This document shows, piece by piece, positions 23,973-63,732 of a stretch of 64,000 bases of DNA (position 1 is its first letter; every line of letters begins with the position of its first letter). The notes beneath the pieces are model-generated. The model saw only the letters and a list, made by a program, of their open reading frames with translations. It did no database searches and was not told where the DNA came from. This stretch comes from Paucidesulfovibrio longus DSM 6739 (GTDB lineage Bacteria; Desulfobacterota; Desulfovibrionia; Desulfovibrionales; Desulfovibrionaceae): NCBI RefSeq assembly GCF_000420485.1, contig NZ_ATVA01000019.1, forward strand, positions 62,001 through 126,000, read 5' to 3'. Both the position numbers and the translations under genes were made by a program.

Positions 23973-25070
23973 CTAGGAGCCGGAAGCGGTCCTGACGCTC
24001 GGCTCGCAACGCGCAGCCAGCAGTTCCCAGCGCAGTTGCTGCTCGTGCTGCACGGCCACGCTCAGGGCCGATCCCAGCACCTCGTCCCAGTGCACCGGGG
24101 AAACGCCGTCGCCGGGGCACTTGGTGGTCAGGTCCGCCTCGGCCAGGACATGCCCGGCCGGCAGGTCGCGGGCGAAAACAATGCTCTTGCGCAGCTTCTT
24201 TGCCGCGGCCTGCTCCTCGGGAAACACGGTCTTGCCCTTGATGAGCACGGCCTTCTCCACCTCGCGGATCATGGCCACCATCAGGGCCAGCTCGCCCGGA
24301 GTGAGGGAAACCTGGTGGTCCGTGCCGCGCATGGACTTGTCCAGGGTGAAGTGGCGCTCCACCACGCACGCGCCCAGAGCCACGGAAGCCACGCTCGGCC
24401 CCATGCCGCGCTCATGGCCGGAGTAGCCCACGGGCAGGTCGAACGTCTCGCGCAGCGCCTGCATGACGGGCAGGCCGATCTGTTCTTCCGGGCAGGGATA
24501 GCGGCTGTTGCAGTGCAGCAGCACCACGTCGTCGTGCACCTGCCGGATCTCGTCCAGGGCAGCCTGGATGTCCGCGATGGAACTCATGCCCGTGGACACG
24601 ATCAGCGGAATCCGGGACGCGGCCATCTTGCGCACCAGGGGCAGGTTGACGAGTTCGGCGGAGCTGATCTTGAGCAGCTCCGGTTCAAGGCCGATCATTT
24701 CGTCCAGGCTGGGCTGGTCCCAGGCCGAAGCGAAGAAGACCAGGCCGAGGGACTCGGCGCGCTTCTTCAGCGCGGCGAGATCGTCCGCGGAAAGCTCCAG
24801 CGCGTCGCGGTGCTGGCCGTAGGTCGGGCCGAAGCTGTTCGGTCCGGTGTAGGGAGCCTCGCGCCCGGCGCGGGTCAAGAGCGCCTCGGTGTTGCGCTTC
24901 TGGAACTTGACGGCGTCCGCGCCCGCGGCAGCGGCCTCCTCGACCATGCGCAGGGCCACTTCCAGTTCGCCTTGATGATTGTTGCCGATTTCCGCGACCA
25001 CGAAGCAGGGATGGCCTGCGCCGATGGTTCTTCCGCTACGAAGCCGTACCGTCGGATTGCTGTTCTGCAT
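23973..25070 (-). CDS. NeuB-family nonulosonic (sialic) acid synthase
   Basis: 365 residues with the two domains of the family: a TIM-barrel NeuB domain with VAEIGNNHQGELE, DAVKFQKRN, KISSAELVNLPLV, STGMSS, LLHCNSRYPCP and GYSGHE, and a C-terminal SAF (antifreeze-like) domain from about 300. It condenses PEP with an N-acetylated aminosugar to give a sialic-acid-like sugar (neuraminic, legionaminic or pseudaminic). Sequence alone does not tell which; the other pathway genes are not in this window. Its ATG lies one nt from the stop of the upstream regulator gene, so the two are co-translated. CheV lies next door, so flagellar glycosylation is a possible use. Confidence 0.92.
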   Translation of the reverse strand: MQNSNPTVRLRSGRTIGAGHPCFVVAEIGNNHQGELEVALRMVEEAAAAGADAVKFQKRNTEALLTRAGREAPYTGPNSFGPTYGQHRDALELSADDLAALKKRAESLGLVFFASAWDQPSLDEMIGLEPELLKISSAELVNLPLVRKMAASRIPLIVSTGMSSIADIQAALDEIRQVHDDVVLLHCNSRYPCPEEQIGLPVMQALRETFDLPVGYSGHERGMGPSVASVALGACVVERHFTLDKSMRGTDHQVSLTPGELALMVAMIREVEKAVLIKGKTVFPEEQAAAKKLRKSIVFARDLPAGHVLAEADLTTKCPGDGVSPVHWDEVLGSALSVAVQHEQQLRWELLAARCEPSVRTASGS

Positions 25071-45243: not shown

Positions 45244-47130
45244 ATGTGCGGAATTTGCGGCGTCCTGAACTTCTCCGGTTCCCCGGTCCTCCGCGAACAG
45301 CTGGAGGCGATGAATGCGGTCCTGGCACATCGGGGACCGGATGGTGAGGGTGTCTTCACTGATGGTCCCCTGGGGCTGGCCCACCGCCGACTGGCGATTC
45401 TGGACCTGAGCAGCGCGGGACAACAGCCCATGCTGACCGAGGATGGACGTCTCGCGATCTCGTACAATGGCGAAGTCTACAATTTCCGCGAACTACGTCA
45501 TCAACTGGAAGGGCTCGGCCACGTTTTCCGCTCCGAATGCGACACCGAGGTGGTGCTGAACTCTTATGTCCAATGGGGGGCAAAGGCTGTTGAGCGCTTC
45601 AACGGCATGTTCGCTCTCGCCATTTACGACAGGAGGGAGCGGAAGCTCTTCCTCGCCCGTGACAGGTACGGCATCAAGCCGTTGTATTACGCATTTCAGA
45701 ACGGCACATTTTTCTTCGCGTCGGAACAAAAGGCGATTTTACACTATCCTGGATTTGCCCGTCGCGTGGACAGCGAAGCTGTGCTCGAATATTTCACCTT
45801 TCAAAACCTCTTTTCCGACAGAACCTTCCTCCAGGGAGTCCGACTCTTTCCAGCGGGCCACCACGCCACGCTCGATTGCGCACACCCAACAGACAAATTG
45901 CCTTTTCGGCAATATTGGGACTTCCACTTCCGGGAGCCCGAACACCCCCTCGACGAGAACGAATACGTTGAGGAAGCCGACAGGCTCTTCAGGCAGGCAG
46001 TTCGACGCCAGCTCGTGAGCGACGTGGAGGTGGGAGCTTTTCTCTCCGGAGGCATCGACTCCGGCTCCATCGTGGCCGAGGCTTCCAAGCATACACGGGA
46101 CTTCAAGACCTTTACCTGCGGCTTTGATCTCCACTCCGCGTCGGGACTGGAACTGGCTTTTGACGAAAGGGAGCGGGCCGAGCAGCTCTCCTACCTCTTC
46201 AAAACCCGGCACTATGAGATGGTGCTCAAGGCGGGGGACATGGAAGCCTGCCTGCCGCAATTGGTTCGGCATCTCGAAGAGCCTCGGGTGGGCCAAAGCT
46301 ACCCGAACTATTACGCCGCCCACCTTGCCAGCAAATTCTGTACGGTGGTCCTGGCCGGCACGGGCGGGGATGAGCTTTTTGCCGGGTATCCATGGCGATA
46401 TCCACGAAACGCGGCAACACAGACTTTCGACGAATACGTCGACAGCTACTACCTGTTCTGGCAGCGGTTGATCCCCAATTCGCTCATCAAGAAAGTTTTT
46501 CGACCGGTCTGGGGCTCCGTTGAACATGTCTGGACACGAGATATCTTCCGCGACGTTTTCCCGAAGCATCTCGCCCCGCCACAAAGCCCGCAGGACTTCA
46601 TCAACCATTCGCTCTACTTCGAATGCAAGACCTTCCTGCACGGCCTGCTCGTGGTCGAGGACAAGCTGACCATGGCGCACGGCCTTGAGGCTCGTGTCCC
46701 CTTCCTGGATAACGACCTTGTGGACTTCGCCATGCAGGTTCCTGTGGCCTGCAAGCTCAAGCACATCAACAGCGTTCAACGCATCGACGAGAACGAGCCG
46801 GGCAGTTCCATGCGCAAGAACACGTTTGGCAAGCAGGACGGCAAGATCATCCTGCGCAAATGTCTTCAGCGGCATGTGCCGGACGATATGCTCAAGGCTG
46901 CGAAACAGGGCTTTTCCGGCCCCGATGCGACATGGTTCAAGGGAGAGAGTATTGACTTTGTTCGCAACGTCATCTTCAATGACCACTCCCGCTTGTTTGA
47001 GTATCTTGACCGTCAGGCTGTACGCGACCTTGTCCGAGAGCACCTGGACGGAAAACAGAATCGACGCCTGCTGATCTGGTCGCTCCTCAACTTCGAGCAA
47101 TGGCTGAACGAATTCATGGAGGCTGCATGA
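45244..47130 (+). CDS. Asparagine synthetase B-type glutamine amidotransferase (first copy)
   Basis: 628 residues. Class II glutaminase domain with nucleophile Cys2 (MCGICGVL), AHRGPDGEG and SYNGEVYNF; C-terminal synthetase domain with the ATP pyrophosphatase loop FLSGGIDSG and the later GTGGDELFAGY. It moves glutamine nitrogen to an activated carboxylate. In glycan clusters these proteins often amidate uronic-acid sugars rather than make asparagine. It starts three nt after the acetyltransferase stop and overlaps the epimerase start by ATGA. A second, clearly different copy lies at 61837. Confidence 0.92.
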   Translation: MCGICGVLNFSGSPVLREQLEAMNAVLAHRGPDGEGVFTDGPLGLAHRRLAILDLSSAGQQPMLTEDGRLAISYNGEVYNFRELRHQLEGLGHVFRSECDTEVVLNSYVQWGAKAVERFNGMFALAIYDRRERKLFLARDRYGIKPLYYAFQNGTFFFASEQKAILHYPGFARRVDSEAVLEYFTFQNLFSDRTFLQGVRLFPAGHHATLDCAHPTDKLPFRQYWDFHFREPEHPLDENEYVEEADRLFRQAVRRQLVSDVEVGAFLSGGIDSGSIVAEASKHTRDFKTFTCGFDLHSASGLELAFDERERAEQLSYLFKTRHYEMVLKAGDMEACLPQLVRHLEEPRVGQSYPNYYAAHLASKFCTVVLAGTGGDELFAGYPWRYPRNAATQTFDEYVDSYYLFWQRLIPNSLIKKVFRPVWGSVEHVWTRDIFRDVFPKHLAPPQSPQDFINHSLYFECKTFLHGLLVVEDKLTMAHGLEARVPFLDNDLVDFAMQVPVACKLKHINSVQRIDENEPGSSMRKNTFGKQDGKIILRKCLQRHVPDDMLKAAKQGFSGPDATWFKGESIDFVRNVIFNDHSRLFEYLDRQAVRDLVREHLDGKQNRRLLIWSLLNFEQWLNEFMEAA

Positions 47131-47987: not shown

Positions 47988-48763
47988 CCCGGACGGCCTC
48001 GATGCGACCCGCCGACTTCACAACGCAAGAATTCCACCGACTGCTGCGGCTGGCCGGGGAACGCTATGCCTTCCATACTTTCACGGACTGTCCGAGGGAC
48101 GGAGAATTTCTCATCTGGCGACACGACATCGACCTTTCCCCGCAGCGCGCGCTCCGACTCGCACGGATTGAGCGGGAGGAAAGCGTCCGGGCGATCTATT
48201 TCATCAATCCCCACAGCGAATTCTACAACCTGCTCGATCAGCACTGCACCGCCGCCGTTAGGGAAATCGCCTCTCTCGGCCACGAACTGGGAGTCCACTT
48301 CGATTCCTGCTACTTCGGCGACCCCCGCGAGGACTTTGAGGAGGTGCTCGCCCGCGAGAAGCGGATGCTTGAGGATATCTTCCGCGTGGAGATGGGCAGT
48401 TTCTCGTTCCACTATACCACCCCGTTTTCGCAGACCTTCACCGGGGAAAGCTACGCGGGGATGGTCAACGCGGCCTCGGACTATTTTCGCAACGAGGTGA
48501 CGTATTGCTCCGATTCCAACGGACTCTGGCGCTACGATCGCCTGGAGGACGTGCTGCTCAAGGGCGGACACGAACGGCTCCAGGTGCTTACGCACCCAGG
48601 GCTCTGGCAGGATGAGCCCATGCCGCCGGCTGATCGCTACCGCCGGTGCGTTTACGGCCGCGCGGACGCCACATGGAAATGGATCAACGACTTCCTGCAG
48701 TCCTGCGGAAGAGAATTTGGCGTTCAGGGATGCAGTGAAACCAATAAAAGTAAATCAATGTGA
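47984..48763 (+). CDS. Polysaccharide-deacetylase-like (NodB superfamily) protein
   Basis: 259 residues. FLIWRHDIDLSPQRAL carries the metal-binding Asp pair, HELGVHFDSCYF the histidine motif, and VLTHPGLWQ a late strand with His, matching a deacetylase subfamily common in lipopolysaccharide clusters. It could remove acetyl groups from a sugar. Coupled to the epimerase by ATGA. A frame from far upstream (47807) overlaps the epimerase and is rejected. It is the last gene before the base composition changes to AT-rich. Confidence 0.85.
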   Translation: MTRTASMRPADFTTQEFHRLLRLAGERYAFHTFTDCPRDGEFLIWRHDIDLSPQRALRLARIEREESVRAIYFINPHSEFYNLLDQHCTAAVREIASLGHELGVHFDSCYFGDPREDFEEVLAREKRMLEDIFRVEMGSFSFHYTTPFSQTFTGESYAGMVNAASDYFRNEVTYCSDSNGLWRYDRLEDVLLKGGHERLQVLTHPGLWQDEPMPPADRYRRCVYGRADATWKWINDFLQSCGREFGVQGCSETNKSKSM

Positions 48764-48764
48764 T

Positions 48765-49760
48765 ATGATGAAAATACAACAATCCATCATGGAAGAAAAC
48801 GAGCGAAGGGTTCAATTCAAAAACAACATTGAACACATTGAATTTCTTGAAAAACTAAACGATGCTGTCTCCGGACTTAACGAACGTCTCAAAAACAGTG
48901 AAAATATGGAATCCAGTAAGCATGTCTGCCTCATGGTCTTTGGACTTTACAGAAGCGGGACATCACTGACGTACCAACTTCTTGCAAATTGTCTGAACGT
49001 CATTTTTCCCAACAACATTTCCGCAAGATTCTGGAAGAATCCCAATGTAGGTTTTAAACTGGCCAGCATCATAACGAGTGAAAAATACGTTACAGAATAC
49101 ACGCCATGCTTCGGCAAGTTCCCAAACGCGGAAGGAGTTCATGAATATAGCTATTTTTGGAGCGACATTTTGCATATGGGAGACCATGAGAACCAATTTA
49201 CAGAACGACCGTTTAGCCCAGATCAATCAAAAAAGTTAAGAGAAACATTATTTTCCCTGATGAATGCTCACGACAAGCCACTTCTGTTCAAGAATATCCT
49301 GGGAGTCCCTCATATGGATCAGATAGACGCGACCCTCGACAAGACACTCTGGATATATGTACAGCGCGACTTCACGGACACTGCGATTTCCCAATACAAT
49401 TCCAGAATCGAATATTACGGCACACCTGACTCCTGGTGGGGACTGTATCCGCCTAACTTTGAGGAGATTCGCCACCTATCTCCCGAGGAACAAATAGCCC
49501 ACTCAATGAAACGTATTTCGGAGATTTATGGGAAAAAGATTGAGGGAAAGGACAATGTCATTGTTTTGCGATACAAGGATGTCTGCAATAACCCTACAAT
49601 GACCATCGAGCAAGTCAGAATGGCATTGAAACGGCTGTACGACTATAGCATTGATGTTAGAAATGGGATACCGGAAAGATTCACAGCCAAGGAGTACGCT
49701 CTGGACACGGACATAAACCAACGCATAGCAAAGGCCGTCAAGGCTATCTGTCACAAATGA
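48765..49760 (+). CDS. PAPS-dependent sulfotransferase-like protein
   Basis: 331 residues. VFGLYRSGTSLTY (about 58-70) is the 5'-phosphosulfate-binding loop, and WIYVQRDFTDTAISQYN the 3'-phosphate-binding segment of sulfotransferases. The N-terminal 50 residues are a charged helix. It would sulfate a glycan, drawing on PAPS. The start region has two ATGs (48765, 48768) without a clear ribosome site; the frame begins two bases after the previous stop. Codons are much richer in A and T than those of the preceding genes, which suggests horizontal transfer. Confidence 0.82.
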   Translation: MMKIQQSIMEENERRVQFKNNIEHIEFLEKLNDAVSGLNERLKNSENMESSKHVCLMVFGLYRSGTSLTYQLLANCLNVIFPNNISARFWKNPNVGFKLASIITSEKYVTEYTPCFGKFPNAEGVHEYSYFWSDILHMGDHENQFTERPFSPDQSKKLRETLFSLMNAHDKPLLFKNILGVPHMDQIDATLDKTLWIYVQRDFTDTAISQYNSRIEYYGTPDSWWGLYPPNFEEIRHLSPEEQIAHSMKRISEIYGKKIEGKDNVIVLRYKDVCNNPTMTIEQVRMALKRLYDYSIDVRNGIPERFTAKEYALDTDINQRIAKAVKAICHK

Positions 49761-50446
49761 CAATCTACGCAGCCCATCAGCCAAACTTTTTGCCGTGGTT
49801 CGGCTATTTTTACAAAATCACACATTGCGATGTGTTTGTGTTTTTGGATGACGTCCAATTTTCATCAGGATCCTACATTAACAGAGTTAAAATGCTTTTC
49901 GGAAAACAACCAAAGTGGGCGACGGCCAGCATACGCAAACGCCAATCCCACACGACACAGCTAAACCAAATGTTCTACTCGAATTCTGACTGGGAGCAAT
50001 TGCTGCTCCGCAGGTTTGAACACAATTACAGAAACTGCGCTCATGGTCGTGTCGCGACATCTATCTTGGAGAGCATCATGTTGCACAAGGAACGCAATGT
50101 TTCCAAATTTAATACGTATGCCATCCATATCATTTGTAAAGAACTCGGTATCGACATGCCCGAGTTTGTGCTTTCGTCCAGCCTCAGCGTTCAATCGCAG
50201 AGCACTCAACGGCTTTGCGATATCGGGAAAGCGATAGGAGGAAACTCATATCTTAGTGGAAACGGAGCTTCCGCTTATCAGGAGAATGCTCTTTTTGCCG
50301 CCCACAACATCCAGGTTTGCTATTCTCAAATGCAACACCCGACGTACCCTCAAATTGCCGATGGAGAATTCTATCCGGGCATGTCAATTCTGGACACTAT
50401 CGCCAATATAGGCTTGGAAACAACAAAAAAACTCCTCATGGGCTAA
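49757..50446 (+). CDS. WbqC-family protein
   Basis: 229 residues. IYAAHQPNFLPWFGYFYKI at the N-terminus, then VFLDDVQFSSGSYINR and a C-terminal YPQIADGEFYPGMSILD, is the plan of the WbqC family, found in O-antigen and capsule clusters. The biochemical role is unsettled; an acyl- or aminosugar-modifying role has been suggested. Overlaps the sulfotransferase by ATGA and shares its AT-rich composition. Confidence 0.9.
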   Translation: MTIYAAHQPNFLPWFGYFYKITHCDVFVFLDDVQFSSGSYINRVKMLFGKQPKWATASIRKRQSHTTQLNQMFYSNSDWEQLLLRRFEHNYRNCAHGRVATSILESIMLHKERNVSKFNTYAIHIICKELGIDMPEFVLSSSLSVQSQSTQRLCDIGKAIGGNSYLSGNGASAYQENALFAAHNIQVCYSQMQHPTYPQIADGEFYPGMSILDTIANIGLETTKKLLMG

Positions 50447-50450
50447 CTCG

Positions 50451-50888
50451 ATGGAAAAGCTGCTTCAGTATATCAACAACGTACGCCCCCTTACGTCTCT
50501 CAAGGCGCTGGACACATTTTCTCGAGCCGGAGAGTGGGCTACCTATCGCTTCGCTTCCATGGTCAAGACGCTGGAATGCTGGGAATATGATTCTCAACAC
50601 ATCGAGCGACTCAAGCGCAACTTCCCGAACGCGATAGTACGGCAGGTTGATTCTATTCAACAGATGCAGCAGCACTCTCAGAGGTACGATTTTGTTTTCA
50701 TTGACAACCCTCAAGGGCTTTACTGCGACAACAAGTATTGTGAGCACTTCGAGATTTTAGGTCATATTCACAGGGTTGTCACTGATCACTGTTTTGTGAT
50801 TTTCAACTGCAACAACAAACCATATGTCAACCCTGAAAAACCTATTGAATATTACAACAAATGGATAGAACGACGCAACATATTTTAG
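50451..50888 (+). CDS. Class I methyltransferase-like protein, prematurely stopped
   Basis: 145 residues up to a TAG at 50886-50888. KALDTFSRAGEWATYRF resembles SAM-binding motif I, and RYDFVFIDNPQG the motif IV strand. Methyltransferases of this kind are normally longer. The same frame continues without another stop for 57 codons after the TAG, encoding a plausible C-terminus, so the gene is best read as interrupted by a nonsense codon. It follows wbqC after four nt in the AT-rich segment. Confidence 0.7.
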   Translation: MEKLLQYINNVRPLTSLKALDTFSRAGEWATYRFASMVKTLECWEYDSQHIERLKRNFPNAIVRQVDSIQQMQQHSQRYDFVFIDNPQGLYCDNKYCEHFEILGHIHRVVTDHCFVIFNCNNKPYVNPEKPIEYYNKWIERRNIF

Positions 50889-51062
50889 CATACCGATTCG
50901 AGATCTATTAATATAGATTTTTTTGACATATTTTATTCGATTTTTTTTAAGGTTCAAAGACTGCACACTCTTTCACATCTCTATATATGTGAACCGTCTC
51001 ACATAAAGGGAACAGATTCTTTCATTTCGCGACACCTCTTTGAGCTTAAAAAGGCTGACTAA
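50889..51062 (+). pseudogene. Orphaned C-terminal part of the methyltransferase (same frame after the TAG)
   Basis: From 50889 the frame of the preceding gene reads on for 57 codons to a TAA at 51060-51062. The product has normal composition, with an aromatic-rich helix (SINIDFFDIFYSIFFK) and a closing FISRHLFELKKAD typical of a methyltransferase final strand. No ribosome site or start codon precedes it. Remaining bases to 51155 show no gene. Confidence 0.6.
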
Positions 51063-51155
51063 GGTCTCGGCTTACGCTTTCACTACCGAGCAGGTCAGAT
51101 AATTATATCAACAAGAGTGCGGGTTAGATCCACCGCAGCAGGCTTAACGCAAAAT

Positions 51156-61836: not shown

Positions 61837-63732
61837 ATGTGCGGAATTGCAGGTATTTTAGGATACGAAAATGCCAGCGGCGAAAGCCTGGCCCGCTCCA
61901 TGACCGACCGCATTCCCCACCGCGGGCCGGACGACGCCGACGCATGGGCGGACGACGATGCGGGGATCGCCCTCGGACACCGCCGCCTCTCCATTCTCGA
62001 CCTCTCGCCCCTGGGCAGGCAGCCCATGCACTCCGCCTGCGGCCGCTTCGTCACGGTCTACAACGGCGAAGTCTACAACTTCGCGGAGATCAAGCGCGAA
62101 CTCGAACCATTGGGGCACGCCTTCAAGGGCGGTTCCGACACCGAGGTCATCCTCGCAGCGGTCCGGCAATGGGGCCTGCGCAAGGCGGTGACACGCTTCG
62201 TGGGCATGTTCGCCATCGCCCTCTGGGACCGTCAGGAGCGTAGCCTCTCCCTGGTCCGCGACCGCCTGGGCATCAAGCCGCTCTTCTACGGCCGCGTGAA
62301 CGGCGCGTTCGCCTTCGCCTCGGAGCTGAAGCCGCTGAAGGCCCTGCCGGGCTTCGACAACCATGTGAACAGGGAAGCTCTGAGCCTCTATTTCCGCCAC
62401 AATTACATCCCGGCTCCCTACAGCATCTATTCCAATATCTGGAAGTTGGAACCTGGAACGATCCTGACGCTGCGAGCCGGGCAAAGCGAACCGGAACTGG
62501 AGCAGTATTGGTCCGCCAGGGACGTGTGGATTTCCGGAGCGGCAGCCCCCTTTCCCGGGGATGCCAAGCAGGCTGCGGACGAACTGGAACGCCTGCTCCA
62601 GGATGCCGTCTCCCTGCGCATGGTCGCGGACGTGCCCCTGGGCGCGTTCCTTTCCGGAGGCATCGACTCCTCCACCGTGGTCGCGCTGATGCAGTCGCTT
62701 TCAAGCCGACCGGTCAAGACCTTCTGCATCGGATTCCATGAGAAGGGCTACAACGAAGCCGAACACGCAAAAGCCGTGGCGGCGCACCTCGGCACGGATC
62801 ACACGGAACTGTACCTCACCCCGCGCGAGATGCTCGACGTGGTTCCCCTGATCCCTCATTTCTGGGACGAACCCTTCTCCGACTCGTCGCAAATTCCAAC
62901 CTACTGCGTCAGCAAGCTCGCGCGGCAGAACGTTACGGTTTCCCTGTCCGGAGACGGCGGCGATGAACTTTTCGCAGGCTATCAGCGCTATTTTTGGATG
63001 AATGGCTGGAACACATTGTCCCGTGTGCCCCTGGCCGTACGCAAGGGCATGCGCTCGCTGCTGCGCCGACTTCCCCGCGGCAGCTTCGACCTGCTGGGCA
63101 GCGTCGGGCCAAAGATACGCTGGCGGCTGGACATGCTCGGCATGGCGGATTTCTCCGAATTCTACCGTTTTTTCATTTCCCATCAGAAACACCCGGAAGA
63201 CATTGTCCTTGGAGGCGCGGAGCCGCCCACCGCGTTGACGCGACCCGACAACCGCCTGGACACGGACCTGTTCCGGCAGATGATGTTCTGGGATCTTGTG
63301 TCCTACCTGCCGGACGACATCCTGACCAAGGTGGACCGGGCCAGCATGGCGGTAAGCCTGGAAGCGCGCGTCCCCCTGCTGGACCACCGCGTGGTGGAAT
63401 TCGCCTCCCGGCTGCCGACCGCCATGAATGTTCGCGGCGGGCAGGGGAAATGCGTTTTGAGGGACGTGCTGTATCGCTATGTCCCCCAAAACCTGGTGGA
63501 ACGCCCCAAAGTCGGCTTTGGCGTGCCCATTGAACACTGGCTCAAGAATGAATTGCGGGACTGGTGCGAGTCGTTGATCGGGGAAAGGCGACTCCGTGAG
63601 GAAGGCTATCTGGACTCGAAAATGGTCCGGCGCATGTGGGACGAATATCTCTCCGGCCAGGCCAATTGGCACTATTATCTCTGGGACGTGCTCATGTTCC
63701 AGGCCTGGCTGGAGCACAACATTGCACCATAA
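61837..63732 (+). CDS. Asparagine synthetase B-type glutamine amidotransferase (second copy)
   Basis: 631 residues. Glutaminase domain with Cys2 (MCGIAGIL), PHRGPDDAD and VYNGEVYNF; synthetase domain with FLSGGIDSSTVVAL, SGDGGDELFAGYQRYFW and KVDRASMAVSLEARVPLLDH. This copy looks like the exosortase/polysaccharide-linked subfamily and differs clearly from the copy at 45244. It may make a second amide on the glycan. AAAGGA precedes the ATG, and the last codons overlap the next gene. A 269-bp gap upstream shows no recognisable feature. Confidence 0.93.
   Translation: MCGIAGILGYENASGESLARSMTDRIPHRGPDDADAWADDDAGIALGHRRLSILDLSPLGRQPMHSACGRFVTVYNGEVYNFAEIKRELEPLGHAFKGGSDTEVILAAVRQWGLRKAVTRFVGMFAIALWDRQERSLSLVRDRLGIKPLFYGRVNGAFAFASELKPLKALPGFDNHVNREALSLYFRHNYIPAPYSIYSNIWKLEPGTILTLRAGQSEPELEQYWSARDVWISGAAAPFPGDAKQAADELERLLQDAVSLRMVADVPLGAFLSGGIDSSTVVALMQSLSSRPVKTFCIGFHEKGYNEAEHAKAVAAHLGTDHTELYLTPREMLDVVPLIPHFWDEPFSDSSQIPTYCVSKLARQNVTVSLSGDGGDELFAGYQRYFWMNGWNTLSRVPLAVRKGMRSLLRRLPRGSFDLLGSVGPKIRWRLDMLGMADFSEFYRFFISHQKHPEDIVLGGAEPPTALTRPDNRLDTDLFRQMMFWDLVSYLPDDILTKVDRASMAVSLEARVPLLDHRVVEFASRLPTAMNVRGGQGKCVLRDVLYRYVPQNLVERPKVGFGVPIEHWLKNELRDWCESLIGERRLREEGYLDSKMVRRMWDEYLSGQANWHYYLWDVLMFQAWLEHNIAP

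Follow-up and report, generated by a model that had tools for sequence, protein, structure and literature searches.

Is the in-frame TAG in a methyltransferase-like gene of Paucidesulfovibrio longus DSM 6739 a plain nonsense mutation, or is it a stop codon that the cell reads through? The frame lies on the forward strand at positions 50451–51062 of the window, by which we mean the whole 64,000-nucleotide stretch of DNA that was analyzed (contig NZ_ATVA01000019.1, positions 62,001 to 126,000). The original prediction had offered a fresh nonsense mutation, a sequencing error, and amber read-through giving two protein forms as the possible explanations. We favor a single nonsense substitution in a glycan methyltransferase gene that was acquired and is now probably a pseudogene; an ordinary broken gene is the most likely reading, and nothing that we saw points to read-through of the TAG by the cell.

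The interrupted frame and its phage relatives

Translation of 50451–51062 yielded 145 codons from the ATG at 50451, a TAG at 50886–50888 located about three-quarters of the way along the methyltransferase frame, and then 57 further codons, the last residues of which are FELKKAD, before a TAA at 51060–51062; the stop and the open codons beyond it were confirmed exactly as first described. Apart from the TAG, no stop interrupts the frame before the TAA, and the other two forward frames contain several stops each over the extension. A terminator was sought just 3′ of the TAA, and none was found. TAG also closes ordinary-looking open reading frames elsewhere in the window, such as a frame at 23973–25070 on the minus strand that resembles NeuB by eye.

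In a tblastn search of phage records, the frame matched methyltransferases that phages of Stenotrophomonas, Rhodobacter, and Vibrio carry in glycan cassettes, with E values of 4e-13 to 4e-8 and local identities of 27.6–30.8%; the overall identity of the frame to these class I methyltransferase relatives was about 21–27%. Five further relatives were found in IMG/VR, bringing the number to ten, each of 226–230 aa. The motifs LDxFxRxG, WE, DxPQG, EHF, NxxPY, and WxxxR are invariant columns common to the window frame and the phage cassette methyltransferases. The matches of the frame in Pfam and NCBIfam were to methyltransferases, and all were below the cut-off; because the phage relatives also lacked a Pfam match above the cut-off, we ascribe these weak scores to a methyltransferase family that is simply not modeled there. 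Judged from these alignments, the window frame is a distant relative of the phage-cassette class I SAM-dependent methyltransferases.

The window copy and the cassette methyltransferases of Delepquintavirus DLP5, Summit, and DLP3, Rhodobacter phage RcZahn, and Vibrio phage KarBoss have core motifs in common over 145 residues, and their C termini lie equally far from the [FY]Y column, whereas the window copy has a shorter N terminus and carries a TAG at the [FY]Y column. The similarity reaches the residue just before the TAG, and both W138 and R142 are conserved. The column occupied by the TAG is Tyr in 10/10 relatives, which run on for 53–59 residues beyond it in comparison to 57 in the window frame, and none of the ten ends there. 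Intact relatives that run on beyond the stop position, as found here for 10/10, are what a pseudogene made by a nonsense substitution would show. On this length comparison, the TAA is the probable ancestral stop. The nonsense mutation is the best supported of the options first put forward, given that the alignment with the relatives reaches the TAG and continues on its far side.

Origin of the 57-codon extension

The extension (50889–51059, forward strand) may be the separated C terminus of the methyltransferase, or it may be unrelated to it, the end of the gene having been lost by recombination near the TAG, which serves as the present stop, and the AT-rich DNA that follows being open by chance. 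Inclusion of the extension raised the score of the frame against a ten-member family profile from 90.9 to 95.7 bits, and this gain of 4.8 bits, which argues against an unrelated tail, was reached by just 18/5000 shuffles. When smaller family profiles were used, 9/1000 and 53/3000 shuffles reached the score of the extension. Among the controls, 27/2000 open frames drawn at random with the same composition and 37/1446 pieces of other window proteins reached its profile score. An 18-residue block test was weaker, at about 4%. The C-terminal motif [FY]Y ... CxSDxxG...YAFRLALE is weakly kept in the extension, in the form of Y162, S183, and R194, with the TAG standing at the Tyr column, and few of the C-terminal residues that are invariant among the phage proteins survive. 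Other comparisons favor an unrelated tail: the gapped global score of the extension against the tails of the relatives was at chance (1006/1500 shuffles), and the extension alone had no BLASTP match and no match in family searches. At the level of sequence, the similarity inside the extension is faint yet exceeds chance. Of the two findings that the original prediction had held to count against it, homologues ending at the TAG were not seen, whereas a lack of similarity in the extension is contradicted only weakly.

The openness of the extension alone is weak evidence because the chance of an open frame of at least 57 codons in DNA of the same dinucleotide make-up is about 0.057, a value that also suits an unrelated tail, and the chance of a stop 50–64 codons downstream is about 0.045. 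The openness nevertheless counts because the relatives end at a matching distance past the same point and the profile score rises. At third positions, the extension has a GC of 0.32, a value below those of all 57-codon windows of three neighboring coding regions (0.39–0.67); this atypical value suits noncoding AT-rich DNA. Long T runs are present as well and, like the third-position GC, would be hard to account for if the open extension is the old C terminus. On the basis of these mixed profile, block, global, and third-position GC results, we regard homology of the extension to the methyltransferase C terminus as probable rather than proven.

The read-through protein was modeled with an alignment that included four viral relatives, and the model had a mean pLDDT of 73.6 and a pTM of 0.77. 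The N-terminal 145 codons (50451–50885) are predicted to form strands 1–5 of a Rossmann-like fold, and the extension is predicted to form a helix (residues 155–168) followed by two strands (171–181 and 192–201), with pLDDT values of 84–90 in blocks 161–180 and 191–203, which cover most of both strands. These elements, which follow the expected order, correspond in the model to the last helix and to β6 and β7, the strand pair with which the sheet of class I methyltransferases is complete. Methyltransferases of solved structure could be aligned with the model from residue 1 to residue 203 with Z scores of 12.6–15.9, and the nearest viral model is that of the DLP5 methyltransferase (TM 0.75). The modeled read-through protein has the class I methyltransferase fold, with its Rossmann-like core and terminal strand 6–7 pair; the 145-residue product, in which the end of the core sheet is missing, would be unlikely to fold stably if the model is right. 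The model is not independent evidence because its input alignment contained relatives, and a single-sequence prediction made without an alignment failed to produce the fold (pLDDT 32). With the agreement in length, the profile gain, and the order of secondary structure elements all standing against an unrelated tail, we consider that origin unlikely, although it deserves to be kept in mind.

Consensus error and read-through

A consensus or assembly error would mean that a sense codon stands at this position in the real genome and that the gene is intact. The frame contains no second lesion and the TAG falls at a conserved residue, as such an error would allow; however, the assembly comprises 19 contigs and is 99.99% complete and 0.22% contaminated, the frame is not shifted, and substitution errors in a finished consensus are rarer than indels in homopolymer runs. 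We judge this explanation to be quite improbable.

Amber suppressor and pyrrolysine genes, which the original prediction had proposed to look for, were not found in the genome. No amber-reading tRNA (CTA anticodon) was present among the 46 tRNAs detected, with the anticodons assigned by ARAGORN on Rfam tRNA hits only, a procedure that an aberrant tRNA could escape. The matches to PylS scored 20.7 and 19.5 bits against a cut-off of 178, and none was convincing; PylD had zero matches, and release factor 1 (RF1) is present. In pyrrolysine genes, too, further open codons lie behind an in-frame TAG, but in this genome the searches yielded neither a PylD match nor an amber tRNA, and the PylS matches were unconvincing; on these grounds together with the presence of RF1, we rejected pyrrolysine recoding. 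A structured read-through element 3′ of the TAG was also rejected, as the RNA folding was unremarkable (z 0.38). A recoding apparatus is not supported by the genome sequence, and the suggestion of amber read-through by dedicated machinery did not survive these searches.

Near-cognate tRNAs might instead read the TAG at a low but useful level, producing a short form and some full-length enzyme. In its favor, the open frame looks like part of the family, and purifying selection on in-frame stops has been described for bacteria, one case being a TAG in a family of sulfotransferases (PMC7918605). Bacterial genes of this kind, with one nonsense codon, resemble the window gene in that one TAG interrupts a frame that is otherwise open before and after it (PMC7918605). 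The evidence for purifying selection on those tolerated stops rests, however, on stops shared by at least two species (PMC7918605), whereas the window gene was found in no other species and no genome searched in the family, class, or phylum shares the in-frame TAG, so that conservation cannot be shown. The tRNA, PylS, PylD, RF1, and RNA-folding results also weigh against such read-through, which we consider very unlikely. It is scarcely credible that the cell tolerates the TAG as a leaky stop that keeps a surface-glycan methyltransferase at a very low level and so varies coat methylation from cell to cell with the DNA unchanged.

The surface-glycan locus and the fate of the gene

The methyltransferase-like gene is part of a low-GC block (48600–51100, GC 0.39–0.48) within a surface-polysaccharide locus with a GC of 0.55–0.60. 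The block also contains, on the same strand, a sulfotransferase-like gene (Pfam PF13469, 1.4e-8, and composition), which spans 48612–49760 as a mechanical open reading frame and has its true start probably near 48765, and, directly upstream of the methyltransferase frame, an intact WbqC-like gene at 49757–50446 (Pfam PF08889, 2.4e-57, profile positions 1–217 of 218). The GC contrast fits horizontal acquisition, and the block looks recently acquired. The methyltransferase gene was not found in either of the genus's other two genomes or in the rest of the 348 class genomes searched. When genomes of the family, class, and phylum were searched with the protein or profile, no close relative was recovered, the few weak phylum matches being confined to short core pieces; no close cellular relative was found in two genome-collection scans, and plasmids and E. 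coli genomes had no match to the frame.

The window copy adjoins WbqC and sulfotransferase genes, whereas the phage cassette copies adjoin deacetylase, epimerase, and aminotransferase genes. The cassette order of PIG-L deacetylase, NAD-dependent epimerase, WecE/DegT aminotransferase, methyltransferase, and glycosyltransferase is kept in the Stenotrophomonas and Rhodobacter phages; the locus of the Vibrio phage is laid out alike, with its genes annotated as hypothetical only, and the aminotransferase-methyltransferase pair is also present in IMG/VR contigs. Our literature search found no paper on the phage glycan cassette. Among the papers listed on WbqC together with O-antigen genes, none seemed, judging by title and abstract, to concern the window's arrangement of sulfotransferase, WbqC-like, and methyltransferase genes.

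According to the nonsense substitution that we favor, a methyltransferase gene carried within a horizontally acquired surface-glycan block, along with those for the sulfotransferase and the WbqC-like protein, would have suffered a single change of the codon for a conserved aromatic residue to TAG. Translation would stop at this codon and leave a 145-residue product that has neither the last helix nor strands 6 and 7. The truncated methyltransferase would probably be unstable and inactive, and methylation of the glycan that is its likely substrate would therefore be lost, such that one methyl group may be missing from the strain's surface glycan. The lesion looks recent because the frame is free of any other stop. 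Its annotation should be that of a probably disrupted methyltransferase gene, with little consequence beyond that. The gene also ties an uncurated methyltransferase family, which was otherwise encountered here in phage glycan cassettes alone, to a locus for bacterial surface polysaccharide. The two ends of this glycan locus are occupied by frames at 45244–47130 and 61837–63732 that begin with MCGI(C/A)G and that resemble, by eye, asparagine synthetase-type amidotransferases.
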